A stretch of 64,000 nucleotides of DNA from the NCBI GenBank assembly GCA_903848935.1, contig CAINHO010000030.1:1-64000 (forward strand). Reading direction: 5' to 3'. The DNA comes from an uncultured Pseudomonadota bacterium. GTDB taxonomy: Bacteria > Pseudomonadota > Gammaproteobacteria > Methylococcales > Methylomonadaceae. Every line of letters begins with the position of its first letter. Position 1 is the stretch's first letter. Under the pieces are notes generated by a model. It made no database searches, was not told the origin of the DNA, and saw only the letters and a list, made by a program, of their open reading frames with translations. Made by a program: the position numbers and the translations under genes. Shown piece after piece: positions 30,513 through 63,936 of this stretch.

Positions 30513-33500
30513 ATGACACAAAAAAATCTAACCCTCGGCATTGCCAATTTTAATTATGCTGATTTGTATGACTCAGCACGTTTGACTGATTTACTCGCGA
30601 TTTTCGATGAATCAGTGAAATACCACGATGCCGATTTGTACGAAAATTACATTTCGTATCGCAGCACCCAAGGCGCAGATTTATCGCCCGAACAACAATC
30701 AGCGATGTTGGTACAAGTTGCGCCATTCGTTGGAAAATTTGTTGCCAAATTGTTCAATGTTGAAGCCGAACATCAAGCACAAAAATCTCACATTCAATCA
30801 GAAATAGAAACGATTTTTACGTTTAAAAATGAAGTCGTCGAAAAATTGGGCGTAGTTTTCAAAGGTCAAACGACAGACGATTGGAAAATTCCTGACGTGT
30901 TGAATCGTTTTGATTTGTTAATCGAAGCAGGTTTCCCCGAAGCCAATTTAGATGATGACGAAGAACATCGTGTGGCAAGAGTTGGCGCGGTAATTGGCTC
31001 ATTGGCAAATCATTACAAAACCTTGGCAAAAGGCAAAGAAAGCCATTATGAAAATGCCGATTTGCAAGCCGAAGCCTTACGCGAAAAATTAAAAAACCAC
31101 GAACTTGCAGCAACCGAATTTGTAGATATTCTCAACGCGCCTGATTTCACCGAATTCACTGCTGGTTTGATGGATGTCGTGCAACGCTGGTGTTTTGTCG
31201 CACAACAAGATAACGATGTCGTGGCGGATTGGTTGAGTTTTAAATTCCCTGAAAAACGTGATTTCGAGAATTTAGTCGAACACGAACTCATCGACAAAAC
31301 CGAATTCAACGTGTGGATGGGAGAACATCGTCGCCGTCGTGATGGTTTCAAATTAACCGATTTGCGTTACAACGAACGCCAAGTTTTATCTGAAGTGAAT
31401 CATTGTATTTACTGCCACGAGCGCGATACCGATTCATGTTCAAAAGGAATGCGTAACAAAAAAACCAACACCTTCAAAGAAGACCCAATGGGCGTAACGA
31501 CCATCGGTTGTCCACTCGATGAAAAAATTTCAGAAATGAATTTAGTCAAACGTGGTGGCGACAACATTGGTGCGTTGGCGATTGTAACCGTTGATAATCC
31601 AATGTGTGCAGGCACGGGGCATCGAATTTGTAACGAATGTATGAAGGGCTGTATTTATCAAAAAACTGACCCCGTAAACATTCCGCAAATCGAAACCAAC
31701 GTGTTGACCGACGTTTTGTTTATGCCTTACGGCTTTGAAATTTACAGTTTGTTGACACGCTGGAATCCGCTTAACGTCAAACGTCCCGTGATGTTGCCAT
31801 ACAACGGTAAAAATGCGCTCGTCGTTGGTTTAGGCCCTGCGGGTTATACGATGAGTCATTATTTGCTCAATGAAGGTTTTGCGGTGGCGGGGATTGACGG
31901 TTTGAAACTTGAGCCGTTGCCTATTGCCCTAACGGGCGATGCAAACAATTTACCTGCGCCGATTGCGGATTTCAAAGACCTTTACGAAGATTTGGACAAA
32001 CGGATTTTGGCAGGTTTTGGCGGTGTGGCGGAATACGGAATTACGGTTCGTTGGGATAAAAACTTTTTGAAAGTCATGTATTTAATGTTATTGCGTCATC
32101 AAACTTTCCGCGCTTACGGCGGCGTGCGTTTTGGCGGAACATTAACAATTGATGATGCGTGGGAAATGGGCTTTGACCATATTTGTATTGCCTCAGGCGC
32201 AGGTCAGCCAACGATTATCGATTTGAAAAACAACCTCATGCGCGGTATTCGCAAAGCCTCAGATTTCTTGATGGCGTTGCAATTAACAGGTGCGGCAAAA
32301 GCCTCTTCGCTTGCGAATTTACAAGTACGTTTGCCAGCAGGTGTGATTGGTGGCGGTTTGACGGCTATTGATACCGCAACGGAATTGATGGCGTATTATC
32401 CTGTGCAAGTTCAAAAAATTCTGCACCGTTATGAAATTTTAACGAAACTTTACGGTGAAGAAAAAGTTCGCGTCCGTTATGACAAAGAAGAAATCATTAT
32501 TTTGGATGAGTTTTTAGCGCACGGAAAAGCGATTGCCGCCGAACGTCAACGCGCAGAAGCCGAAGGTGAATTACCTGATTTCCAACCGCTGGTCGAATCA
32601 TGGGGCGGCGTGACGTTGTTCTATCGCAAAGGCATTAAAGACGCGCCTGCGTATCGTCAAAACCATGAAGAAATCAGCGAAGCCTTAGAAGAAGGCATTG
32701 CATTGGCAGAATTCATGAGTCCCGTCGGTGCGAATGCCGATGAATTTGGGCATTTGGTATCGGTCGATTTCCAAAACACCAAAACCAAAGCCGATGTAAA
32801 TGTGTCATTGCGTAATTTATACGTCGCTGCGGGAACGTCACCAAACACGATTTACCAAAGCGAATATCCTGACACGTTTGTGATGGATAAATGGTTCTTC
32901 CAACGTTATGAGCCTGAATTTGAAAATGGCACGGTTTCGCTCGTTGCCAGCAACGATGAAAAAATGCCAAAAATTGGCAAACCTGCGCCGCTCACGTCAT
33001 ATCAAAAAGACGGTAAATTTATCAGTTTCTATGGCGACAATCACCCTGTTTATGCGGGCAACGTCGTGAAAGCAATGGCGAGCGCGAAAAATGGTTATCC
33101 GTATGTGGTGAAATTGTTTGAGCAAGAATTGGCGGGTTTAAATCCTTCGCAACAAGCCGAACGTGATGCGGCGGCAAAAAATCTGTTTGCTCGTTTGGAT
33201 GATTCGTTCAAAGCGACGATTGTTGAAATTAACCGTTTAACACCAACGATTGTTGAAATTGTGATTAAAGCTCCGCTTGCCGCTGAAAAATTTGAAGCAG
33301 GTCAATTTTACCGCGTGCAAAATTATGAAGCCTTTGCGCCAACCGTTGAAGGCACTGTTTTAGCGGCTGAAGGGCTGGCGTTGACAGGCGCGGAAGTGAA
33401 CAAAGAAAAAGGTACGGTTTCATTGATTGCGCTAGAAATGGGTTCATCGTCGCGCTTGTGTGCAACGTGGAAAGCAGGCGACCCTGTTGTGTTGATGGGT

Positions 33501-34172
33501 GTCACAGGCACGCCAACCGAAATTTTAACAGGTCAAACCGTGTTGTTGATTGGCGGCGGTTTAGGAAACGCGGTGTTGTTCTCAATCGGGAAAGCGTTAC
33601 GCGCGGCAGGCAATAAAGTGATTTATTTTGCAGGCTACAATTTGGCGCGAGACCGTTTCAAAGTCGAAGATGTTGAAGCGGCAGCAGACATTGTGATTTG
33701 GTCTGTCAATAAAGGCGAAAATGTTGTGCCATTCACGCCAACTCGTCCGCAAGATAAAACCTTTGTCGGCAACATTTTGGAAGCGATGATTGCTTACGGC
33801 AAAGGCGAATTAGTTGAACAACCGATTTCACTGGCGGACGTTGACCATTTGATTGTGATTGGTTCGGATAGAATGATGGAGGCGGTCAAACACGCGCGTT
33901 TTGATGTGTTGAAACCGTATTTGACCAAAGCACATCACGCCGTTGGTTCAATCAATTCGCCAATGCAGTGCATGATGAAAGGTATTTGCGCTCAATGTTT
34001 ATGCAAACACGTTGATAAAGACAGTGGCAAAGAGTTCTTCGTTTATTCGTGCTACAACCAAGATCAGGATTTGGATAAAGTCGATTTCCCGAACTTGAAT
34101 GCGCGTCTCAAACAAAACACCGTGCAGGAAAAATTGTCTAATCTTTGGTTGGATTATTTGTTGACGAAGTAG
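30513..34172 (+). CDS. Large Fe-S/FAD/NAD(P) oxidoreductase (GltB-small-subunit-like + DHOD electron-transfer-like)
   Basis: The protein has 1219 residues. The N-terminal ~280 are helical. A Cys-rich segment follows (CIYCHERDTDSC at about 298 and GTGHRICNECMKGCIY at about 370), a likely Fe-S region. Then comes a pyridine nucleotide-disulfide oxidoreductase fold (GLGPAGY at about 436, GGGLTAIDTATELM at about 610). Residues about 905-1200 form a ferredoxin reductase/PyrK-like domain (FEAGQFYRVQNYE, LLIGGGLGNAVLF) with a second Cys cluster (QCMMKGICAQCLC, about 1153). The layout suggests NAD(P)H-dependent electron transfer between flavin and Fe-S centres. The physiological role is unknown to me. 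The 3' end is the source of repeat C1. Confidence 0.8.
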   Translation: MTQKNLTLGIANFNYADLYDSARLTDLLAIFDESVKYHDADLYENYISYRSTQGADLSPEQQSAMLVQVAPFVGKFVAKLFNVEAEHQAQKSHIQSEIETIFTFKNEVVEKLGVVFKGQTTDDWKIPDVLNRFDLLIEAGFPEANLDDDEEHRVARVGAVIGSLANHYKTLAKGKESHYENADLQAEALREKLKNHELAATEFVDILNAPDFTEFTAGLMDVVQRWCFVAQQDNDVVADWLSFKFPEKRDFENLVEHELIDKTEFNVWMGEHRRRRDGFKLTDLRYNERQVLSEVNHCIYCHERDTDSCSKGMRNKKTNTFKEDPMGVTTIGCPLDEKISEMNLVKRGGDNIGALAIVTVDNPMCAGTGHRICNECMKGCIYQKTDPVNIPQIETNVLTDVLFMPYGFEIYSLLTRWNPLNVKRPVMLPYNGKNALVVGLGPAGYTMSHYLLNEGFAVAGIDGLKLEPLPIALTGDANNLPAPIADFKDLYEDLDKRILAGFGGVAEYGITVRWDKNFLKVMYLMLLRHQTFRAYGGVRFGGTLTIDDAWEMGFDHICIASGAGQPTIIDLKNNLMRGIRKASDFLMALQLTGAAKASSLANLQVRLPAGVIGGGLTAIDTATELMAYYPVQVQKILHRYEILTKLYGEEKVRVRYDKEEIIILDEFLAHGKAIAAERQRAEAEGELPDFQPLVESWGGVTLFYRKGIKDAPAYRQNHEEISEALEEGIALAEFMSPVGANADEFGHLVSVDFQNTKTKADVNVSLRNLYVAAGTSPNTIYQSEYPDTFVMDKWFFQRYEPEFENGTVSLVASNDEKMPKIGKPAPLTSYQKDGKFISFYGDNHPVYAGNVVKAMASAKNGYPYVVKLFEQELAGLNPSQQAERDAAAKNLFARLDDSFKATIVEINRLTPTIVEIVIKAPLAAEKFEAGQFYRVQNYEAFAPTVEGTVLAAEGLALTGAEVNKEKGTVSLIALEMGSSSRLCATWKAGDPVVLMGVTGTPTEILTGQTVLLIGGGLGNAVLFSIGKALRAAGNKVIYFAGYNLARDRFKVEDVEAAADIVIWSVNKGENVVPFTPTRPQDKTFVGNILEAMIAYGKGELVEQPISLADVDHLIVIGSDRMMEAVKHARFDVLKPYLTKAHHAVGSINSPMQCMMKGICAQCLCKHVDKDSGKEFFVYSCYNQDQDLDKVDFPNLNARLKQNTVQEKLSNLWLDYLLTK
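34101..34171 (+). repeat. Repeat C1: native 3' end of the oxidoreductase gene
   Basis: The segment GCGCGTCTCAAACAAAACAC and following bases up to GAAGTA, ending at the stop codon. Diverged copies C2-C4 occur at 36809-36875, 37468-37530 and 39936-40004. The shared core includes CAAACAAAACACCGTGCA and GGTTGGATTATTTGTTGA. Confidence 0.9.
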
Positions 34173-34192
34173 TTATTAAAATTTAATTTCAT

Positions 34193-34226
34193 GAGCAGGT
34201 GATAATTGCCCTCATCTGCTCACTTT
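34193..34226 (+). terminator. Terminator-like hairpin after the oxidoreductase gene
   Basis: GAGCAGGTGA (34193-34202) pairs with TCATCTGCTC (34212-34221) with one G-U pair, loop of 9, followed by ACTTTT. The T-tract is short. Confidence 0.7.
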
Positions 34227-34277
34227 TACGCTAACGAATATAAAAAATATTCATAACAAATAGATTAGGAAACGATA

Positions 34278-35369
34278 ATGTTGGAACTTGCATCCGCGCT
34301 AACACCAAAATCAATCAAGTTAGATGACTTACTACTTGATCCAAACAATCCACGATTTTCCGAATTGGGAGAAGAAATAAATCCAATTCCAGAATTACGT
34401 TTCAATGAAGAAAAAGTGCAAGAAAAGACTTTTGCTAAAATGAAAGACCCTATTTTTGGTGCTAGTGAATTACGCGATACTATAAAAACATTGGGATTCC
34501 TACCAATGGATAGAATCGTGGTACGGAAATGGAAAGGAGTAACAGAAAAATATGTTGTGATTGAAGGTAATCGTCGAGTAAGCGCGTTAAAGTGGCTAAT
34601 TTCCTTGAATGATGCGGGTAAGGAAACGTTCAGTGAGCAACAAATCAATAATTTTACTCATCTCGAATGTTTAGTTTTGGATGATGATATTGCACCTGAA
34701 ATGGCACATTTAATTTTACCTGGATTACGTCATATTTCTGGCATAAAAGAATGGGGACCGTATCAAAAAGCTAAAGTTGTTGTTGCGTTGCGTAATTCAG
34801 GTATGAGTCCACAGGAAGCTGCTCAAAGTCTAGGGTTGCATATTAGACCCGCTAATAGAGCATATCGTTGTTTTATGGCTTTGGAACAAATGCGTAAAAG
34901 TGAGGAATATGGCGAATTTGCAACTCCGAAACTGTACACCTATTTTGATGAAGCCTTAAATAAAGCACCAATAAGAACATGGCTGGGGTGGAATGACACA
35001 ACTAATCAATTTGAACAGAATGAACGATTGCTCGAATTTTATAGTTGGATAGTTCCATCTGAAGACAATGAGCTTAAATTGCCAGAAACGAGTAACGTAA
35101 GAGACTTAGGAAAGATCATAGAAGATGATAATGCAATGCAAATTTTTCGATCTCCACATGGAACGTTATTGCGTGCTTTAGCTAAATATGAAGTTGATCA
35201 TCCAGAAGAATGGAGTCCTAAAATTTCAGCTGCCAATTCGGCGTTAAAATCATTGACACCCAACAAGTTACGTACGATGGAAGAAGCAGCACTTCAGGCT
35301 ATTCAAGAACTATCAGAAACGATTCAACAAGTTCTGAAAGATAGAGATGCTCTGATTAAAAGCCAATAA
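34278..35369 (+). CDS. ParB-like nuclease-fold protein (putative defence module gene 1)
   Basis: The protein has 363 residues. The N-terminal ~110 have the ParB/Srx pattern: LDDLLLDPNNPRFSEL, a linker, GFLPMDRIVV, then VVIEGNRRVSALKWL (EGNRR at 96-100, the nucleotide-binding position in ParB-like domains). A helical, HTH-like middle (GMSPQEAAQSLGLHIR) and a coiled C-terminal end follow. It precedes an Mrr-like nuclease by 17 bp with the same orientation, and is bounded by repeats C1 and C2. It is not a chromosomal ParB: no parA and no parS-type context. The ATP/CTP-using DNA-sensor role is inference. Confidence 0.75.
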   Translation: MLELASALTPKSIKLDDLLLDPNNPRFSELGEEINPIPELRFNEEKVQEKTFAKMKDPIFGASELRDTIKTLGFLPMDRIVVRKWKGVTEKYVVIEGNRRVSALKWLISLNDAGKETFSEQQINNFTHLECLVLDDDIAPEMAHLILPGLRHISGIKEWGPYQKAKVVVALRNSGMSPQEAAQSLGLHIRPANRAYRCFMALEQMRKSEEYGEFATPKLYTYFDEALNKAPIRTWLGWNDTTNQFEQNERLLEFYSWIVPSEDNELKLPETSNVRDLGKIIEDDNAMQIFRSPHGTLLRALAKYEVDHPEEWSPKISAANSALKSLTPNKLRTMEEAALQAIQELSETIQQVLKDRDALIKSQ

Positions 35370-35386
35370 ATAGGCAGTAATACGAA

Positions 35387-36133
35387 ATGGCGAAACTATC
35401 ACGAGAAATAATAGCTCAATGGGCTATCGAGAGTTTGGAGTCAGAAGAGTGGACATTACTGCCAAAACTCTGTGAAGACAGCATAAAAAAGCAGAATAAA
35501 TTTTCTGAAAGAGAAATTGATGAATCTATAGAACGTGAATTGGAAAATGTTGCTGAACTCTTACGAAACAAGGCTGTTAGTGCTAAGGAAAATGGCGAAA
35601 TAGCTATTTATGAAATTGATGATGAAGCCCCGCCTTATATCAGAAAGTGCGGTGAAATCTATCCCGATATTTTGAAAAAATTACAACAAATGGAATGGGA
35701 TAAATTTGAAAAACTGTGTACTGATATTTTGCAAATTTTGGGATGGAATGAATCAGAAAACATCGGTGGCAGACAAGATGACGGTGTTGACTTTCATTCA
35801 TTTGGTTTTCCTAATCATCAAATTTTCGATTTACCAATGCCACCTAGCTGTAAAGTTTTAGTAATTGGGCAAGCAAAACGTTATAAGCAAAGCAACACTG
35901 TTTCAGAAACTGAAATCAGAAAGTTTGTTGGAGGCGCACTCAAAAAATTGAATGATTTTCGTAAATCAGGAAAAGTGGGTGTTTTAACTCCCGTTATTTT
36001 TGCTTTTTGGACATCTTCTGATTTCCAAGAACCCGCTAAAGAATATGCCAAAACAATGGGAATTTGGTTTATGAATGGCAGAACATTGGTTGAATACCTT
36101 AATAAACTGAATTTAGGACAATCCGTCGATTAA
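35387..36133 (+). CDS. Mrr-like PD-(D/E)XK endonuclease (putative defence module gene 2)
   Basis: The protein has 248 residues. The helical first half (1-95) is followed by an Mrr-type catalytic domain: WDKFEKLCTDILQILGW, GGRQDDGVDF (Asp135) and VLVIGQAKRYKQSN (Gln162, Lys164). Those residues are the usual catalytic set of Mrr/restriction endonucleases (D...QxK). It is in an operon with the ParB-like gene; C2 begins 7 bp after its stop. The base composition is more A-rich than the oxidoreductase. The target, for example modified DNA or phage DNA, is unknown. Confidence 0.8.
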   Translation: MAKLSREIIAQWAIESLESEEWTLLPKLCEDSIKKQNKFSEREIDESIERELENVAELLRNKAVSAKENGEIAIYEIDDEAPPYIRKCGEIYPDILKKLQQMEWDKFEKLCTDILQILGWNESENIGGRQDDGVDFHSFGFPNHQIFDLPMPPSCKVLVIGQAKRYKQSNTVSETEIRKFVGGALKKLNDFRKSGKVGVLTPVIFAFWTSSDFQEPAKEYAKTMGIWFMNGRTLVEYLNKLNLGQSVD

Positions 36134-36140
36134 CAGTAGA

Positions 36141-36875
36141 GATTGCACTGGAAATGGGTTCATCGTCGCGTTTGTGTGCAACATGGAAAGCTGGCGACCC
36201 AGTGGTTTTGATGGGTGTGACTGAAATTCCAACAGGTCAAACCGTGTTGCTCATCGGTAGCGGTTTAGGAAATGCGGTGTTGTTTTCAATCGGGAAAGCG
36301 TTACGCGCGGCGGGAAATAAAGTGATTTATTTCGCAGGTTACAATTTGGCAAGAGACCGTTTCAAAGTCGAAGACGTTGAAGCCGCCGCAGACATTGTGA
36401 TTTGGTCTGTCAATAAAGGCGAAAATGTTGTGCCATTCACGCCAACTCGTCCGCAAGATAAAACCTTTGTCGGCAACATTTTGGAAGCGATGATTGCTTA
36501 CGGCAAAGGTGAATTGGGCGAACAACCAATTTCACTTGCTGACGTTGACCATTTGATTGTGATTGGTTCGGACAGAATGATGGACGCGGTGAAACACGCG
36601 CGTTTTGATGTGTTGAAACCGTATTTAACCAAAGCGCATCATGCGGTTGGTTCAATCAATTCGCCGATGCAGTGCATGATGAAAGGGATTTGCGCTCAAT
36701 GTTTGTGCAAACACGTTGATAAAGACAGTGGCAAAGAGTTCTTTGTTTATTCGTGTTACAACCAAGATCAGGATTTGGATAAAGTCAATTTCCCGAATTT
36801 GAATGCGCGTCTCAAACAAAACACCGTGCAGGAGTTGTGTCTAAATCTTTAGTTGGATTATTTATTGATGAAGTA
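36141..36875 (+). pseudogene. Duplicated, diverged 3' fragment of the oxidoreductase gene (C2)
   Basis: This corresponds to residues about 972-1219 of the gene at 30513, from GATTGC. The copy lost 12 bp (GTPTEIL becomes EI), has scattered mainly third-position changes, and near the end a frameshift gives an early stop (QELCLNL). There is no ribosome-binding site or proper N-terminus, so it should not make a working protein. The divergence is too high for a recent local copy and suggests an allele from a related strain. Confidence 0.92.
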
Positions 36876-36885
36876 ATTCAAAATG

Positions 36886-36918
36886 CAGTGACGTAGTTTA
36901 AAATCTGCGTCACTGTTT
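36886..36918 (+). terminator. Terminator-like hairpin after C2
   Basis: CAGTGACGTAG (36886-36896) pairs with CTGCGTCACTG (36905-36915), an 11-bp stem with one T-G pair and loop of 8, followed by TTTAA. Its sequence differs from the terminator after C1. Confidence 0.75.
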
Positions 36919-36939
36919 AACCTTTAAAAAGGAAAACTA

Positions 36940-37206
36940 ATGCCAGTCATTTCTTATTTCTTCGGTATTTACATTCGGATGTATAACGATGACCATAATC
37001 CGCCACATTTTCATGTTGATTATCAAGGACAACAAGCGCAATTTGCTATCGAAAGCGGTGAATTGTTAGCAGGAAAATTACCCAGCAAAGCAGTCAAATT
37101 AGTGCGCGAATGGGCAAAAGAGCATCAAGAAGAATTACGCGACAATTGGGAATTAGCGGTTGCTTTAAAACCTTTACAACGCATTGCGGGAGCTGACAAT
37201 GATTAA
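36940..37206 (+). CDS. DUF4160 protein, second pair
   Basis: The product has 88 residues, with GIYIRMYNDDHNPPHFHVDY and a longer C-terminal helix (VKLVREWAKEHQEELRDNW). The start ATG follows AAAAAGGAAAA. It overlaps its DUF2442 partner by 8 bp. It lies between C2 and C3, so this pair is one of the cargo modules of the hotspot. Confidence 0.85.
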   Translation: MPVISYFFGIYIRMYNDDHNPPHFHVDYQGQQAQFAIESGELLAGKLPSKAVKLVREWAKEHQEELRDNWELAVALKPLQRIAGADND

Positions 37207-37468
37207 AATTATTCGAGCCTATTATTTACAACAAAAAATTTTACGACTTTATTTTTCTGATAATTCCTACGGGGATTACGATTTACAACCATTAGTCGAT
37301 AGAGATGCCGAGTTAGTTTTACTGTTAAAAGATGATGATTATTTCAAACAATTTTTTTTAGAATTAGGCGCGTTGTGTTGGAAAAATGGTTTGGAATTAT
37401 GTCCCGATAGCATTTATCAAAAACTAGCAGAAAAACAGCAATTGCATTTTGAATTGAAAGCGGCTTAA
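37199..37468 (+). CDS. DUF2442 protein, second pair
   Basis: The protein has 89 residues from ATG 37199, with LRLYFSDNSYGDYDLQPLV and FLELGALCWKNGLELCPDSIY. This variant is the longer DUF2442 type with the W-NGLEL-P segment seen in many members. The stop codon TAA at 37466-37468 is shared with the first base of repeat C3. Role unknown. Confidence 0.85.
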   Translation: MIKIIRAYYLQQKILRLYFSDNSYGDYDLQPLVDRDAELVLLLKDDDYFKQFFLELGALCWKNGLELCPDSIYQKLAEKQQLHFELKAA

Positions 37469-37530
37469 AACAAAACACCGTGCAGGAATTGCGTCTAATC
37501 TTTGGTTGGATTATTTGTTGATGAAGTAGG
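37468..37530 (+). repeat. Repeat C3: 63-bp copy of the oxidoreductase 3' end
   Basis: It starts AAACAAAACACCGTGCAGGA and ends at GAAGTAG, with all but the first part of C1. It has a 1-base deletion compared with C1 near AGGAATTG. Confidence 0.9.
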
Positions 37531-37543
37531 TATTGGTTACATG

Positions 37544-37571
37544 GGCGTATTATTTTTAACACGCCTTTTTT
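37544..37571 (+). terminator. Terminator-like hairpin after C3
   Basis: GGCGT (37544-37548) pairs with ACGCC (37561-37565), followed by six T. Only five base pairs, but the T-tract is good. Differs from those after C1 and C2. Confidence 0.55.
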
Positions 37572-37607
37572 AAATAAATTAAAAAACTTAGTCAAATAGA
37601 TTTACGT

Positions 37608-37901
37608 TTGATTATAAAAGACACAAGCGCACCATTGCATGATGTAACTTTTTTGAATGTTAAAACTGAAAAAACTCACAATCGTTACAAAAAAGCTATG
37701 CAATCAGCTAGACATTGGTATGGAATAATCGAAGTTTTAATCAAACAGGCGGAAGAAGACAAAAAAAATGCAGTAAATAATGTTGTTCAAATTTCGCAAA
37801 GTTCAATTACAGATGAAATTAAAAAACTCGCTGAACTTCGTGATATTGGGATTTTAAGCGATGTTGAATTTCAACAGCAAAAAGAAAAACTTTTAGGTTA
37901 A
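37608..37901 (+). CDS. Short SHOCT-ended protein, probably 5'-truncated
   Basis: 97 residues, if TTG 37608 is used. The C-terminal end (DEIKKLAELRDIGILSDVEFQQQKEKLL) is the SHOCT domain found at the end of many membrane or DNA-binding proteins. There is no good start or ribosome-binding site, and the N-terminal part is unfamiliar, so this may be the remnant of a longer gene cut by the junction with C3. It ends 3 bp before the AriA-like gene. Confidence 0.5.
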   Translation: MIIKDTSAPLHDVTFLNVKTEKTHNRYKKAMQSARHWYGIIEVLIKQAEEDKKNAVNNVVQISQSSITDEIKKLAELRDIGILSDVEFQQQKEKLLG

Positions 37902-37904
37902 AAC

Positions 37905-38990
37905 ATGAATACACAAAATGCCATTCGCCTTAACAGATTAAGTATCAAAAATTATAAACGGCTCGATTCATTAGAAATTGAGTTCCCGCAACCAGTGATG
38001 AAAAATGATGCTGATATTCTGGTTTTCGGTAGCAAAAACGGTGGAGGTAAAACATCTATTCTTGAATGCTGTTCTTTGTTGACATTGGCCGCGACTATTG
38101 GCGAAAAAGTTAACCGTTTTCGAGACAGTGAATTATTGTTTGACGTTGCCAGTTTGCTAATCAAAGCAGGGCAAGCCGAATCTAGTATTTCAGGTGAATT
38201 TGAAAATGGCTCAAAAAAATGTACTGTTTCTTTAACAATTGATAGAAAAAAAGGGTTTGTAATACATTCAACAAAAGGAGATAAATTCTTTGATTCTTAT
38301 CGTGAAGATAAAAAAGCGTATTTTGGTGAAATGGATTATTTTCTAAATAGTGTTTTATCGTTTTCAAGTGAACCGTTAATTGTTCCTCCGCTGTTACATT
38401 TCAATAGTTATCGCAAAGTCCAAGAATCAAACCCCGAACTTGGAATGATGTCAGATGATTATTCGTCACAACGGAATATGCGTATTTCACCAATGAGACG
38501 TAGTTTAACGCCAGTCATTAGTTCTTTTAAATTAGAAATTGTTCGTTCTTTGATGGGAAAAGCGGCTTTATTTGAAGGAATCTATCAACAAGAATCAGAA
38601 CTGGTATTGACTAAACTAAACACGCTCATTGAAAAGTATTGTGGTGGGCAAATTGAAAATTTGCGTCCATTACCAAACAACAAAGTTGATATTCGTATAA
38701 AGCCACTTGGCGGACAAGATTCGTTTTCTTTTGATGGTTTAAGTTCTGGGCAAAAAGAAATTATCGCCACACTTTTTTTAATTTGGAAAAATACGCAAAC
38801 ATATTCAGGCATTGTTTTAATTGACGAACCCGAACTGCATTTAAACACCGAATGGCAAGGTGATTTTGTCAGACAACTTCACAAACTCGCCCCCCATAAT
38901 CAATACATTTTAGCCACGCATTCAGAGGAAATTTTTCGTTCTGTTGATAAATCTTATCGGGCTATTTTGACAACTGATGAGGAAGCGTGA
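37905..38990 (+). CDS. AAA/ABC-type ATPase, AriA-like (PARIS-like defence)
   Basis: The protein has 361 residues, of the AAA_15/21 (RecF/OLD-like) group: Walker A GSKNGGGKT (42-50), a signature LSSGQKEI (about 287), Walker B IVLIDEPELHL (about 305) and an ATHSEE sensor. Next to a DUF4435 protein this gives the two-gene pattern of PARIS, in which AriA senses a phage trigger and activates the AriB nuclease. It is somewhat shorter than the PARIS ATPases I recall, so the name is by similarity of layout. It overlaps the next gene by 4 bp. Confidence 0.7.
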   Translation: MNTQNAIRLNRLSIKNYKRLDSLEIEFPQPVMKNDADILVFGSKNGGGKTSILECCSLLTLAATIGEKVNRFRDSELLFDVASLLIKAGQAESSISGEFENGSKKCTVSLTIDRKKGFVIHSTKGDKFFDSYREDKKAYFGEMDYFLNSVLSFSSEPLIVPPLLHFNSYRKVQESNPELGMMSDDYSSQRNMRISPMRRSLTPVISSFKLEIVRSLMGKAALFEGIYQQESELVLTKLNTLIEKYCGGQIENLRPLPNNKVDIRIKPLGGQDSFSFDGLSSGQKEIIATLFLIWKNTQTYSGIVLIDEPELHLNTEWQGDFVRQLHKLAPHNQYILATHSEEIFRSVDKSYRAILTTDEEA

Positions 38991-39895
38991 GAATGTCGAT
39001 GATATTCAAATTCGGTGCGGCTCCTGAAGATGTTTTACAAGGTAGCGGACACACGCTATTTGTTGAAGGAAAAAACAATCAGGCGTTTGACCCAGTTGTA
39101 ATGGAAGAATTATTGAAAAATAACGGTTTGCAAATGACGGTTAAAGCGATAGGTCATTGCGATAATGTGAGAAGTACCGCACAAGCATTGATTTCTTACC
39201 AACCCTCCTATTACTTTTTGATTGACCGTGATGACAATGACGATTTAACTGTCGAAAAATCATGGAATAGTTTTCAAGATTTAAGCCAGCATAATTTGTT
39301 GATTTGGAAGAAAAGAGAATTAGAAAACTATTTCATCGAACCAACCTATTTGTCGAATTCATCGTTTTTAAAAGAAAATATAAGTGTCGATGATTTGAGA
39401 GATCGAATTTTAGCTGGATGTAATCAACGAATTTTTATTGATGCAGCGAATTTTACGATTTTAGATTTGAATAAAAAAATAACGAAAAAACTCCGTTGTA
39501 ATTTCAGTGATTTTAGTAAATTCAAATGTAAAGAGGATGGCGAACAAGTGCTTGAACAGATGACAGAAATGGAATTAAAGAAAAATGAAATCGACGAAAT
39601 TTTAACGGTCGATTTTGTGAAGCAAATTTATTTTGAAACGATTCAAAAATTAAGCGGGGGAACATTGCCGCTTCAATACGGTTGTGGAAATTGGCTTGAA
39701 CAACTTTCAGGCAAAGAAATTATGAACAGCATTATGAATCAATGTTTTCAGGTAAAAGATAGAAACGACAAATATCTTCAAGGCGCAGACAAAACAAAAC
39801 AGGTCGTAAGAGAATTATTACATCTTCCACTTCATCAACAACCTGCTGATTTTAAAAACTTGGTTACTTTATTACACAGAAGAATCAGAACTTAA
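38987..39895 (+). CDS. DUF4435 (TOPRIM-like) nuclease, AriB-like (PARIS-like defence)
   Basis: A 302-residue protein. FVEGKNNQAFD (Glu27) and YFLIDRDDNDD (Asp80, Asp82) give the TOPRIM E...DxD set; KRELENYFIEP (about 109-119) is the DUF4435 mark. In PARIS the AriB toxin/nuclease is released by AriA and stops translation by cutting host tRNA. GTG 38987 overlaps the AriA stop by 4 bp; ATG 38993 is the alternative. C4 starts 41 bp after the stop. Confidence 0.72.
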   Translation: MRMSMIFKFGAAPEDVLQGSGHTLFVEGKNNQAFDPVVMEELLKNNGLQMTVKAIGHCDNVRSTAQALISYQPSYYFLIDRDDNDDLTVEKSWNSFQDLSQHNLLIWKKRELENYFIEPTYLSNSSFLKENISVDDLRDRILAGCNQRIFIDAANFTILDLNKKITKKLRCNFSDFSKFKCKEDGEQVLEQMTEMELKKNEIDEILTVDFVKQIYFETIQKLSGGTLPLQYGCGNWLEQLSGKEIMNSIMNQCFQVKDRNDKYLQGADKTKQVVRELLHLPLHQQPADFKNLVTLLHRRIRT

Positions 39896-39935
39896 AATGT
39901 GATGCAAGTTAATTTACCGTGTGCAGAATGACGAA

Positions 39936-40004
39936 GCGTCTCAAACAAAACACCGTGCAAGAAAAACTGCCTAATCTTTGGTTGGATTATTTGTTGATGA
40001 AGTG
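39936..40004 (+). repeat. Repeat C4: 69-bp copy of the oxidoreductase 3' end
   Basis: GCGTCTCAAACAAAACACCG and on to GAAGTGG; about 90% like C1 by eye, with no in-frame stop in the copy. It closes the hotspot; the copA gene is convergent 33 bp on. Confidence 0.9.
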
Positions 40005-40037
40005 GTCAAAATCGAAAACGAGCGAATTCATTGGCTT

Positions 40038-42473
40038 CTAATTTTTATTCAATCGCAACGAATTCACAATCACCGACACGGAACTCAACGCCATTGCGGC
40101 AGAGGCAATCATCGGATTCAAACGTCCTGCTGCCGCAACAGGAATCGCAATCACGTTGTAACCAAACGCCCAGAAAAGATTTTGTTTAATAACGGTAATC
40201 GTTTTTTTGCTGAGTTCAATCCCAGCGGTGACTTTTGAAATATCGCCTTGAACGAGTGTCATATCTGCCGATTCAATCGCTACGTCTGTTCCCGTTCCAA
40301 TCGCAAAACCGACATCTGCTGCCGCCAACGCTGGCGCATCGTTAATGCCGTCGCCAATCATGCCGACTTTTTTGCCTTGCGCTTGATAATCTCGAATCAC
40401 GCTTAATTTTTGTTCAGGTGTCGCGTTGGCAATCACAGTTTCAATGCCAACTTTGGCGGCAATATAATGGGCGGTTTTTTCAGTGTCGCCCGTAACCATT
40501 AACGTTTCAATGCCTTGTTTTTTCAAACGTAAAATTGCTGCTGCCGCATCAGGTCGCGCTTTATCGGCAATCCCAAAAACGGCCACTTCTTTACCATTGA
40601 TTGCCATGAAAACAGGCGTTTTTCCTTGCGACGCAAATTCGCCCGCCGCATTTTGTAAACCGTCAATCGAAACACTTTGTTCAATCAACCACGCTTTATT
40701 TCCAAGCAAGATTTTTTTGCCATCAATTTCGGCTTCAATACCACGTCCGGTTTCACTTTGAAAATGCGCGCAAGGTTCTAATTCGATATTTTTTTCAGCG
40801 GCATAAAGCACAATCGCTTTGCCTAAAAAATGTTCTGAATTGTGTTCAGCCGATGCCGCTAATTTGATAATGTTCGCTTCGCTTAAACGTGAAAGCTTCA
40901 ACAAATCAGTGACTTTCGGCTTGCCTTCGGTAATCGTACCTGTTTTGTCGAATACTATAACGTTCAGTTTTGCGGCGGTTTCTAAACTTTCACCGTTACG
41001 AATGTAAATGCCTTCTCGGGCAGCTTGACCGGCACCGACCATAATTGCCGCAGGTGTTGCTAATCCTAATGCACAGGGACAAGCAATCAATAAAACCGTA
41101 ATCGCATTTCCAAACGCAAAACTAAATGACGCACCCGCTGCCAACCAACCGACTAACGTTAATGCTGATAAAACCATCACGGATGGAACAAAAACCGCTG
41201 AAATTCTATCAACGTGTTTTTGAATTGGGAGTTTTGTGGATTGCGCTTGGTCAACCATGTGGACGATTCCCGCTAACACTGTATCCATGCCGATTGCAGT
41301 AACTTGAACACGCAACGCGCCACTGCCATTCACACAACCGCCGATAACTTTGTTGCCGTTATTTTTCACGACGGGCAAACTTTCACCCGTTACCATTGAT
41401 TCATCAACCGTTGAAACGCCGTGAATCACCACGCCGTCAGTCGGGATTTTTTCACCAGGTCGAACTAAAATAATGTCGTCGATTTCGAGCGCATCAACAT
41501 CAACGATTTCTTCGATGTCACCATTGATTCGCGTGGCGGTTTGCGGCTGTAAATCGACCAATTGCCGAATCGCTTCGCCCGCTTTGCCTTTGGCGCGTTC
41601 TTCTAAATATCGCCCGAGCAAAACAAACGTAATAATTGCCGCAGCCGCTTCAAAATACAAATGTCCGCTACGGCGCAAGAACGCTGGCAAACTGTAACCA
41701 TAAGCACTTCCCACACCTAACGCGATGAGCGAATCCATATTCGCGGCGCGTTGCCTCACCAACCGCCATGCTTTCGCAAAAAACGGAAATCCCGCCCAAA
41801 AAACCACGGGCGTGGTTAACGCTAATTGCATCCAATGTAATTTCCGCGACGTGGTCATTGCCATTCCCGCTAGAATGACGGGCGTGCTTAAAATAGCTGA
41901 CCACACAAAACGATTTCTTGCCGTAGTAACCCGATTTTGTTCTTTTTCGATGAGTTTTTTACGTTGCGAAAGTGTGTCCATCGGATAAGTTTTATAACCC
42001 ACTTTATCGACTAATTGCCCAACGTCATCTTTGGTTAATTGCCCTTGAACGTTCAACGTTGACGTGCCGAAATTTACACTCGCCGTTTTCACGCGCTCAT
42101 CACGTTTCAAAACCATTTCAATCAACAACGCGCACGACGCGCAACTCATGCCCTCAACAGCTAAATCAATGTCTTGAAGTTTGCCGTCAAAATGTTTCTT
42201 TTCGTGATGTGGCAACGTTGGACTTTTGTGAGCAATATTGCCTAAAACGGCATCGAGTAAAATCAACAAATTCTTTTTCGGTAAACCTGCGGGATCAAAT
42301 TCAATCGTCACCGAACCGATTGAATGAACGGTTTTCACACGCTTAATTTCAGGACGTTTTTTTAAAATAATTTCAAAAATATAAGCGCGTTCTTGGTCGT
42401 TTTTAATAATCGGCGACACGATCCGAAGACGGCGTGCGAGCTGATGGGCGATTTGAAAATTTTTTGTGGTCAC
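40038..42473 (-). CDS. copA: Copper-type P1B ATPase (CopA family)
   Basis: The protein has 811 residues. An N-terminal HMA_2-like domain without Cys (about 10-80) is followed by a normal HMA domain with GMSCASC (Cys111, Cys114). There are eight membrane helices, the metal motif CPC in [14 protein letters not shown], phosphorylation site [11 protein letters not shown] and [11 protein letters not shown]. The C-terminal [15 protein letters not shown] segment also fits Cu(I) transporters. It should export Cu(I) across the inner membrane. It lies at the 3' end of a five-gene minus-strand group of metal-related small proteins, convergent with the hotspot. Confidence 0.93.
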
Positions 42474-63859: not shown

Positions 63860-63936
63860 TGGGGTGAACGATGGGGCTCGAACCCACGACAACCGGAATC
63901 ACAATCCGGGACTCTACCAACTGAGCTACGCTCACC
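63860..63936 (-). tRNA. tRNA-His (GTG)
   Basis: The minus strand folds as a cloverleaf with acceptor GTGAGCG/CGTTCAC, D-arm GCTCAGTTGGTAGAG, anticodon loop ATTGTGATT (GTG, His) and T-arm GTGGGTTCGAGCCCCAT. The extra G at -1 opposite C73, specific to tRNA-His, is encoded, as is the CCA end. Confidence 0.97.

Follow-up and report, generated by a model that had tools for sequence, protein, structure and literature searches.

Organisation of the locus

The window, the whole 64,000-nucleotide stretch of DNA analysed here, carries a gene (X) for a 1219-amino-acid FAD/Fe-S oxidoreductase. The 3' end of X is present four times (C1 to C4) and frames three two-gene modules, with a short SHOCT open reading frame (ORF) in addition. 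The features are arranged as follows:

30513..34172, + strand, gene X, the putative recombination target
34131..34172, + strand, last 13 codons and stop of X, with synonymous sites nearly frozen in the genus
34103..34173, + strand, copy C1, native 3' end of X (71-bp query search)
34192..34222, + strand, hairpin after C1 (fold z -3.57)
34278..35369, + strand, module 1, ParB-like protein (PADLOC E 2.5e-48 and 2.7e-14)
35387..36133, + strand, module 1, Mrr-like nuclease (PF04471, E 6.3e-15)
36141..36875, + strand, copy C2, 735-bp 3' fragment of an X allele
36885..36916, + strand, hairpin after C2 (fold z -6.74)
36940..37206, + strand, module 2, DUF4160, DhiT-like toxin (PF13711, E 4e-26)
37199..37468, + strand, module 2, DUF2442, DhiA-like antitoxin (PF10387, E 2e-6)
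37468..37530, + strand, copy C3 (71-bp query search)
37543..37566, + strand, weak hairpin after C3 (fold z -1.87; 10 of 200 shuffles equally good)
37608..37901, + strand, module 3, short SHOCT ORF (PF09851)
37905..38990, + strand, module 3, AAA ATPase, AriA/PtuA-like (PADLOC PtuA 1e-25, AriAB 4e-20, AriA 1e-18)
38987..39895, + strand, module 3, AriB-like protein (PADLOC AriAB, E 2.9e-9)
39936..40004, + strand, copy C4, right part of a composite X tail
40038..42473, - strand, copA-like heavy-metal ATPase, right flank, also found in genomes G001 and G014

X matches the Pfam domain Pyr_redox_2 over its cut-off; the best NCBIfam match, PRK06567, lies below the cut-off of that model. The name copA, like hpt, nagZ, nqrM and XerC/XerD, is our presumed reading of sequence or domain matches. 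Searched with a 71-bp tail query, the genome of origin (completeness 90.8%) yielded exactly four places (E 2.5e-31 to 1.7e-16), the same four that a preliminary description had reported; its position for C1 (34101-34171) shifts to 34103-34173, and the other three are as given. C2 shares 90.6% identity with the native end. In one 90-column window it reaches 100% identity to its own X, with 13 other native sequences compared at 68-93%, and this window likely represents a conversion tract. C4 is composite: its left part derives from a different segment of X, and about 770 bp are absent between the two. As a control, we examined the window and 20 stretches of the same genome (383,066 bases), which hold 275 ORFs of at least 150 amino acids, 255 of them with enough downstream sequence. 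Among these 255, only X and its fragment C2 gave copies extending to the 3' end of the gene. Three other genes gave matches that ended before it: one match covers 34 bp, and the other two, at 71-74% identity, are paralogue-like.

The terminator-like hairpins originally described after the first three copies are strong after C1 and C2 and weak after C3, and the fold z-score test gave none after C4. A strict terminator scan detected none of the three. A known RNA family in the array was ruled out, as an Rfam search of positions 33900-40200 gave no match at the gathering threshold.

Pfam and PADLOC matches are in keeping with the three gene pairs named at the outset (ParB-like with Mrr-like, DUF4160 with DUF2442, SHOCT with PARIS-like). 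The ParB-like protein of module 1 resembles the N-terminal part of PDC-M38A and PD-Lambda-5_A in PADLOC and matches the ParB model TIGR00180 weakly, below its cut-off. In module 2, the DUF4160 protein scores 76 bits with the DhiT model, below the cut-off of 100, and the DUF2442 protein scores far below the DhiA cut-off. The SHOCT ORF of module 3 is 67% identical to the C-terminal part of a 286-amino-acid protein of genome G003. The adjoining ATPase and AriB-like genes resemble the PARIS pair AriA/AriB, both matching the AriAB profile, although the ATPase scores higher with PtuA.

A genus-wide hotspot behind gene X

We observed 19 additional copies of the X tail in 11 of the 18 genomes of the genus, which are drafts in many contigs, some stopping in or near repeats. 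The host group consists of methane-eating bacteria of lakes. DhiT/DhiA, or just the end of DUF2442, is found with a tail in G000, G003, G004, G009, G014 and G015, and the PARIS module in G000, G003 and G009; the two modules recur in relatives in another order. Varied contents follow the native X end in the 16 cases where it is assembled, and they differ in all three close pairs compared, where the species diverge from the X stop or just past it. The downstream side of X is a genus-wide hotspot. The repeated capture at a fixed site proposed in the preliminary description is upheld by the different cargo and the reordered modules, and other cargo between tail copies was likewise seen in relatives. 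Neither a fixed arrangement everywhere nor a single internal duplication lacking variable cargo was found. The expected empty site, X followed directly by copA, did not appear in strict form among the contigs examined; relatives lacking tails exist, and other cargo lies behind their X. Near the tail at valS in G015, the marker protein was found in none of the 17 other genomes, hence no empty allele is available there for comparison.

The tails resemble alleles of a working gene

The left edges of the tails vary, as had been noted: the longest tails measure about 1.6 kb, about 1.4 kb, at least 1.05 kb and 735 bp, the shortest 37 and 26 bp. The common right end was also confirmed, but not as a fixed crossover point, which it does not prove because it consists of nothing more than the place where X naturally ends and the sequence after it. 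Compared with their own X, four long tails carry 96/36, 115/32, 13/3 and 42/6 synonymous/other changes, a ratio of 0.04-0.11, against 0.08-0.10 between species. Because the differences are mostly synonymous and the ratio is that seen between species, the long tails look like alleles of a working gene rather than decayed duplicates, and their divergence from the resident gene probably arose under purifying selection. At five sites separating G012 and G016 from G005 and G013, the G012 tail matches G005/G013 at four and its own clade at none. G005 carries the module associated with this tail behind its own X, at 92.7% identity over the 423 bp available. These patterns are consistent with the claim that the 3' ends come from other alleles. 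For some tails a foreign origin is less clear: C2 (94/88) and one G007 tail (95/97) group with their own X in a tree of poor resolution, in which 13 of 18 inner branches are open. Because of this poor resolution, the G003 tails not grouping with the G003 X says little.

The tail ends vary further in detail. G004 has a hybrid leader, and because both flanking copies share the same private base, its joints would lie more than 40 bp apart unless evened by later conversion; a simple fixed-point crossover is hard to reconcile with G004 unless conversion came after. An odd change of AAATTG to TTGTG is common to the tails of several modules and also occurs in a Methylovulum genome. Allowing up to three mismatches, this variant was found among 237 genomes of the family in five genomes of the genus and in G220, whose sequence is that of the Methylovulum record L100; one more match (L186) looks like chance. 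A wider element with this tail variant was rejected on the basis of this confinement. Of two tails at loci other than X, one starts 37 bp and the other 38-46 bp before the end. The last tail in G003 is the shortest, and both distal tails in G000 are short.

The frozen end of gene X and exchange within the gene

Across the genus, the last 13 codons of X show 0.028 synonymous differences per site, compared with 0.346 over the whole gene. This block and the window one codon off are the two lowest of 661 windows. In three outgroup clusters, the block shows 0.48-0.72 synonymous differences per site, which rules out that the freezing is common to X in all genera. Such genus-specific freezing was unexpected. 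Within the tails, the last 36 bp have 33 of 504 positions changed and the preceding 36 bp 129 of 504 (14 of the 19 tails). In the six tails with X-like sequence past 72 bp, the counts are 13 of 216 and 26 of 216, and this difference, only two-fold, led us to reject a sharp conservation step inside the tails.

G011 and G014 are identical over a block of 1533 bp (-345 to +1187 of X); identity is 97.3% upstream of it and 91.9% after it. We read this block as a recent exchange within X; it describes recombination in X itself rather than relative to other core genes.

Mobility genes and viral sources

The absence of a recombinase stands: no PF00589 or PF00239 match was obtained on the 141-kb contig of the window. 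The same genome has three PF00589 matches, two of XerC/XerD size, and no PF00239 match. Neither family matched inside the arrays, many of whose contigs stop early; on X-bearing contigs, the nearest matches are located upstream of X in G014 (about 20 kb), past the array in G003 (about 36 kb) and in G007 at a distance of about 93 kb. Pfam analysis of 40 of 69 selected ORFs from arrays, flanks and ectopic loci showed one PDDEXK_2 transposase-family protein, at a locus unlinked to X. The 18 genomes gave no integron integrase over the TIGR02249 cut-off, and on this ground we set aside an integron. We also rejected a tRNA-targeted island, the only tRNA of the window (tRNA-His at 63860) being far off. 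A viral or satellite source of the X-end core was ruled out, since the core is absent from a viral contig collection (two exact patterns) and the last 750 bp of X have no match in phage or plasmid records.

Proposed recombination at the end of gene X

We lean, a little past an even chance, towards an exchange hotspot on the downstream side of X in which ordinary homologous recombination does most of the work. Incoming DNA would derive from a related cell that already has a module behind its X, and this donor X would pair with the resident X. The other end would be joined without homology, either because a circularised fragment integrates by one crossover or by homology-facilitated illegitimate recombination. 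X would remain whole, with the module behind it and a piece of the X 3' end left after the module. Later events would stack modules. Tails once longer than 1 kb would shrink by erosion to about 40-100 bp and yet keep supplying homology that travels with the module, in most cases back to the X site and occasionally to a different locus. We infer the route of uptake, the circular or linear intermediate, the dependence on RecA and erosion as the cause of short tails. In favour of this reading are the varying left edges, the largely synonymous changes in the long tails, the G012 tail, the block common to G011 and G014, the likely conversion tract in C2, the reordered modules, the separated joints of G004, the comEC-type gene in 16 of the 18 genomes and the lack of recombinase matches on the contig of the window. 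Homologous recombination poorly explains freezing of the last 13 codons in this genus only, with homogenisation by frequent exchange as a possible cause. The closely spaced starts of the ectopic tails, the TTGTG change in tails of several modules and the grouping of C2 and one G007 tail with their own X also count against it.

The main rival is an attachment-like site served by a recombinase, in which the last 37-44 bp of X form the site and each insertion leaves a copy. We regard it as a real possibility, though a rather doubtful one. The inserts could be tandem remnants of integrative elements that have lost their recombinase (cis-mobilizable, accreting like CIMEs) or cassettes moved in trans by a recombinase whose gene lies elsewhere. 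Genus-specific freezing at the DNA level, the better-kept last 36 bp of the tails and the starts of the ectopic tails favour such a site, as do the short distal tails of G003 and G000, since among CIMEs, as described in PMC5704250 and PMC7563491, decay is strongest at the greatest distance from the gene. Against it stand the distance of the nearest recombinase matches, the lack of an integron integrase, left edges reaching up to 1.6 kb into X, the separated joints of G004 and the missing core in viral contigs. A little less probable again is that the frozen 13 codons, besides coding, are where an as yet unrecognised cassette system of this genus recombines. Through it, small defence modules that end in a copy of the site would be stacked, lost and passed between species. 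Such a system would be integron-like without an integron integrase, its enzyme unknown or acting in trans (for example Xer). Homologous and site-specific recombination can be weighed here, not settled.

A single internal duplication of the X 3' end, subsequent drift of the copies and independent insertion of modules among them would fit C2 being slightly nearer its own X than to that of other species, and the G007 tail that groups with its own X. This course of events is nevertheless very improbable given the pattern of purifying selection in fragments that lack the gene start, the same module-tail junctions in several species in different order, and the foreign-like G012 tail. Slightly harder still to credit is an artefact of metagenome assembly or binning; the drafts are in many contigs, some ending in or near repeats, yet the arrays lie inside contigs of 141, 123 and 97 kb from separate assemblies with common module boundaries.

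Relation to known systems

The preferred reading, recombination at a hotspot behind X, resembles the integrase-free hotspot model, which in PMC5635113 (2017) involves double recombination at both flanking core genes. Shared features are variable cargo beside a conserved gene, with high turnover at a fixed place in all three close pairs, exchange within the flanking gene, a competence gene (a comEC-type gene, PF03772, in 16 of the 18 genomes, one partial) and no mobile-element genes nearby (no PF00589 or PF00239 match within the arrays, the nearest about 20 kb from X). Unlike in that model, every module here either brings along or leaves a stretch from the 3' end of the flanking gene, giving a tandem array. 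Long target duplication upon insertion (Nobusato et al. 2000, as related in PMC1643837) also places defence-type genes between long direct repeats of host sequence, as found here, whereas our repeats are diverged alleles in series and no strictly empty allele was found. CIME accretion, as described in PMC5704250 and PMC7563491, similarly yields integrase-less tandem islands with a copy of the 3' end of a gene between them, and decay is greatest in the parts most distant from that gene. It differs in that no integrase-bearing element with the same site was found at the X end in the 18 genomes, a test limited by contigs that often stop early, and in that the tails here span 26 bp to 1.6 kb. Integron cassette arrays consist of ORFs each followed by a short repeated site; here the repeat is the end of a gene, and no integron integrase exceeded the cut-off in the genus. 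No description of X as an integration site stood out in literature listings, which is not proof of absence. The X-tail array appears to be a variant of known hotspot behaviour, new in form.

Many defence islands lack an integrase, and their turnover is an open question. Because each module has kept part of the gene with which it moved, the donor clade, order of arrival and crossover positions are partly readable here. The genus-specific freezing of the last codons of X offers a concrete candidate recombination site. Lake bacteria that oxidise methane are of ecological importance, and to our knowledge their phage defence has been little studied. The apparent absence of a nearby insertion enzyme suggests that ordinary recombination may shuffle defence genes.

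Copies of the oxidoreductase gene end in the genome of origin

The FAD/Fe-S oxidoreductase gene, here called X, is followed by three cargo modules, each closed by an extra copy of the X 3′ end (a tail).

30513-34172: gene X, FAD/Fe-S oxidoreductase, 1219 amino acids
Module 1: ParB-like protein (like PDC-M38A and PD-Lambda-5_A) and Mrr-like nuclease
Module 2: DUF4160 and DUF2442, with a likeness to DhiT/DhiA below the curated cut-offs (DhiT/DhiA module)
Module 3: short SHOCT open reading frame (ORF), then AriA-like and AriB-like genes (PARIS module)

The preliminary description had reported four copies of the X end, and these are present in one orientation: the native end (C1) and the tails C2, C3 and C4. 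C2 is the terminal part of a 735-bp X fragment. For the module 3 ATPase, PtuA profiles outscore the AriA-like assignment. Throughout the genome of origin (G000, 90.8% complete), X-end copies were found at C1 to C4 only. The control set comprised 275 ORFs of at least 150 amino acids from 383,066 bases (the window and 20 further stretches of the genome), 255 of them comparable with their downstream sequence. Among these 255, copies reaching the gene 3′ end were confined to X and the X fragment C2; two further genes gave paralogue-like matches of 71–74%, and one gave a 34-bp match ending 41 bp before the gene end. At L213:17010-19360, elsewhere in this genome, 34 bp close to the 3′ end of a 295-amino-acid gene recur 2.2 kb downstream (94% identity), which might be a remnant of a similar process at another gene.

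Variable cargo behind X across the genus

At the protein level, 48 of 61 genomes, G000 among them, contain X or something matching it; two of these matches are weak and one spans 84 residues only. The region behind X is a hotspot throughout the genus: in 17 of the 18 genomes the 71-bp X end matched, at 35 places in all, 16 being native ends and 19 extra copies across 11 genomes. Eleven of the extra copies share a contig with native X (three each in G000 and the relative G003, two in G009, one each in G001, G004 and G012). The remainder lie on other contigs; some of these may be parts of the same array, and some are separate loci.

In all three close pairs compared, the content behind X differs. 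For G002 and G015, identity is 93% in the 400 bp leading up to the X stop; the next 0.7 and 2.15 kb have nothing in common, and then 96% identity returns over 3.7 kb. G009 and G010 diverge from the X stop onwards, G012 and G016 from about 48 bp past it. The cargo behind X includes Septu genes (PtuA 4e-158, PtuB 6e-96) with a type IV restriction-like helicase in G003, BrnT/CopG in G004, YefM/YoeB in G012 and a pair resembling PDC-M31A/B in G015, as well as genes with no defence match, for instance an aldehyde dehydrogenase family protein (G006) and a sensor kinase (G001). Defence and toxin-antitoxin genes are therefore frequent but not exclusive, with Pfam annotation covering 40 of 69 selected ORFs and PADLOC 10.

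The modules also change rank. The DhiT/DhiA module is second in G000 and G009, third in G003 and first in G004; its DUF2442 end with tail further occurs at a contig start in G014 and behind hpt in G015, where DUF4160 is mostly gone. The PARIS module takes third place in G000 and first place in G003, and in G009 it is part of the first unit. Four genomes (G000, G003, G004, G009) have similar DhiT/DhiA tail junctions, those of G003 and G004 carrying a small deletion, and a composite PARIS tail is common to G000 and G009: tail and module move as one.

X tails at other loci

In 10 of 18 genus genomes, a gene that we take to be hpt-like is followed by one presumed to be nagZ-like. In G002 and G015 (L136:10232-10268; L134, reverse strand), an X tail or modules follow the hpt-like gene, and then an nqrM-like gene; this locus is a second exchange site with rearrangement. 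A short sequence reading TIIGHKPLIEYP... closes the cargo of G002 at both the X locus (L036, ~4200) and the hpt locus (L136, ~11030), and is possibly the tail of another gene in like use. Beside valS in G008 (L137:5055-5080), a 26-bp X tail sits between two genes running the opposite way, followed by a hairpin-forming stretch resembling that behind several native X genes. Two outgroup X loci from other genera, L100 (Methylovulum sp. STC_68) and L119 (a Methylococcales MAG), carry short tandem X-end copies right behind X.

Probable foreign alleles and exchange within X

Differences between the long tails and their resident X are mostly synonymous: 96 synonymous to 36 other changes in the first G003 tail (ratio 0.105), 115 to 32 in the second (0.077), 13 to 3 in the first G007 tail (0.056) and 42 to 6 in C2 (0.040). 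These ratios resemble between-species X values (0.08–0.10), and in-place drift of a start-less fragment would not give them; a comparison of the native G003 and G011 genes that fell out of frame is discounted. In a weakly resolved tree of tails and natives (13 of 18 inner branches open), the G003 tails fall apart from the G003 X, while C2 and one G007 tail group with their own X (94/88 and 95/97). C2 contains a stretch identical to its own X, suggesting gene conversion. At five sites dividing its clade from G005/G013, the G012 tail is G005/G013-like at four and host-like at none, and the YefM module of G012 also lies behind X of G005 (92.7% identity over 423 bp). Furthermore, the X genes of G011 and G014 have 1533 bp in common without mismatch, flanked by 97.3% identity upstream and 91.9% downstream, a block in which exchange within X is seen directly. 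The C-terminus of X is itself changed in G011 (L051, in-frame insertion of ~54 bp) and G014 (L046, end replaced).

Conservation of the last 13 codons

Unexpectedly, the ten closest native X genes show 0.028 synonymous differences per site in the last 13 codons, whereas the full comparison of 673 codons gives 0.346. Of 661 windows, this one and its one-codon shift rank lowest. The same codons in three outgroup clusters (12, 7 and 4 sequences) give 0.608, 0.719 and 0.476, each above its gene average. Four natives of a clade diverged by ~20% have nearly identical codons at the X end. One 21-mer is common to 10 of the 14 intact native genes, whereas the 65 outgroup loci, drawn from several genera, have 45 different ones. 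In these comparisons, the freezing of this block is genus-specific.

Tails depart from native X at 33 of 504 positions within the final 36 bp and at 129 of 504 within the preceding 36 bp, a contrast that is inflated because gaps were counted and at least five tails begin inside the 72 bp. This set holds 14 of the 19 tails (five module repeats dropped, the DhiT/DhiA module kept twice), two of them compared with a relative's native end. Six farther-reaching tails give 13 of 216 versus 26 of 216, only a two-fold difference. Several tails share an AAATTG to TTGTG change, also present in one Methylovulum genome; no native X among the 65 outgroup loci has it. The tandem copies at L100 carry this change.

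Mechanism of tail and module placement

The preliminary description had noted no recombinase nearby, and indeed the contig of the window is without a tyrosine or serine recombinase match. In the whole genome there are three PF00589 matches, of which two have the size of XerC/XerD; PF00239 has none. Among the other contigs with X, the closest PF00589 matches lie ~20 kb upstream of X (G014), ~36 kb past the array (G003) and ~93 kb from X (G007); many contigs stop soon after X, and in those genomes an enzyme could lie farther out. No integron integrase scored above cut-off in the 18 genus genomes, and 16 of them have a comEC-type gene.

Each half of the behaviour of this locus has published precedents. 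PMC5635113 treats hotspots without mobile elements that operate via flanking core genes, PMC1643837 insertion with long target duplication, PMC3240628 homology-facilitated illegitimate recombination as well as single crossovers that involve circularised DNA, and PMC7563491 and PMC5704250 CIME accretion, in which the elements lying farthest from the gene are the most decayed. Our literature search found no description of the present combination, in which diverged gene tails stand in series, defence modules are shuffled and the coding end is frozen.

We lean towards homologous recombination plus illegitimate joining as the main means by which tails and modules would have been placed, because the left edges form a continuum up to 1.6 kb, the alleles are coding-like, exchange is seen in X, G004 has a hybrid leader and the enzyme is missing. 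That the X end instead serves as an attachment-like site seems less likely to us; the genus-specific frozen block speaks for it, as do the edges of ectopic tails (those at non-X loci), two of which begin 37 bp and 38–46 bp from the X end. Under homologous recombination, frequent exchange via short tails could also be what keeps the last X codons alike across species. Both homologous recombination and an attachment-like site may be at work.
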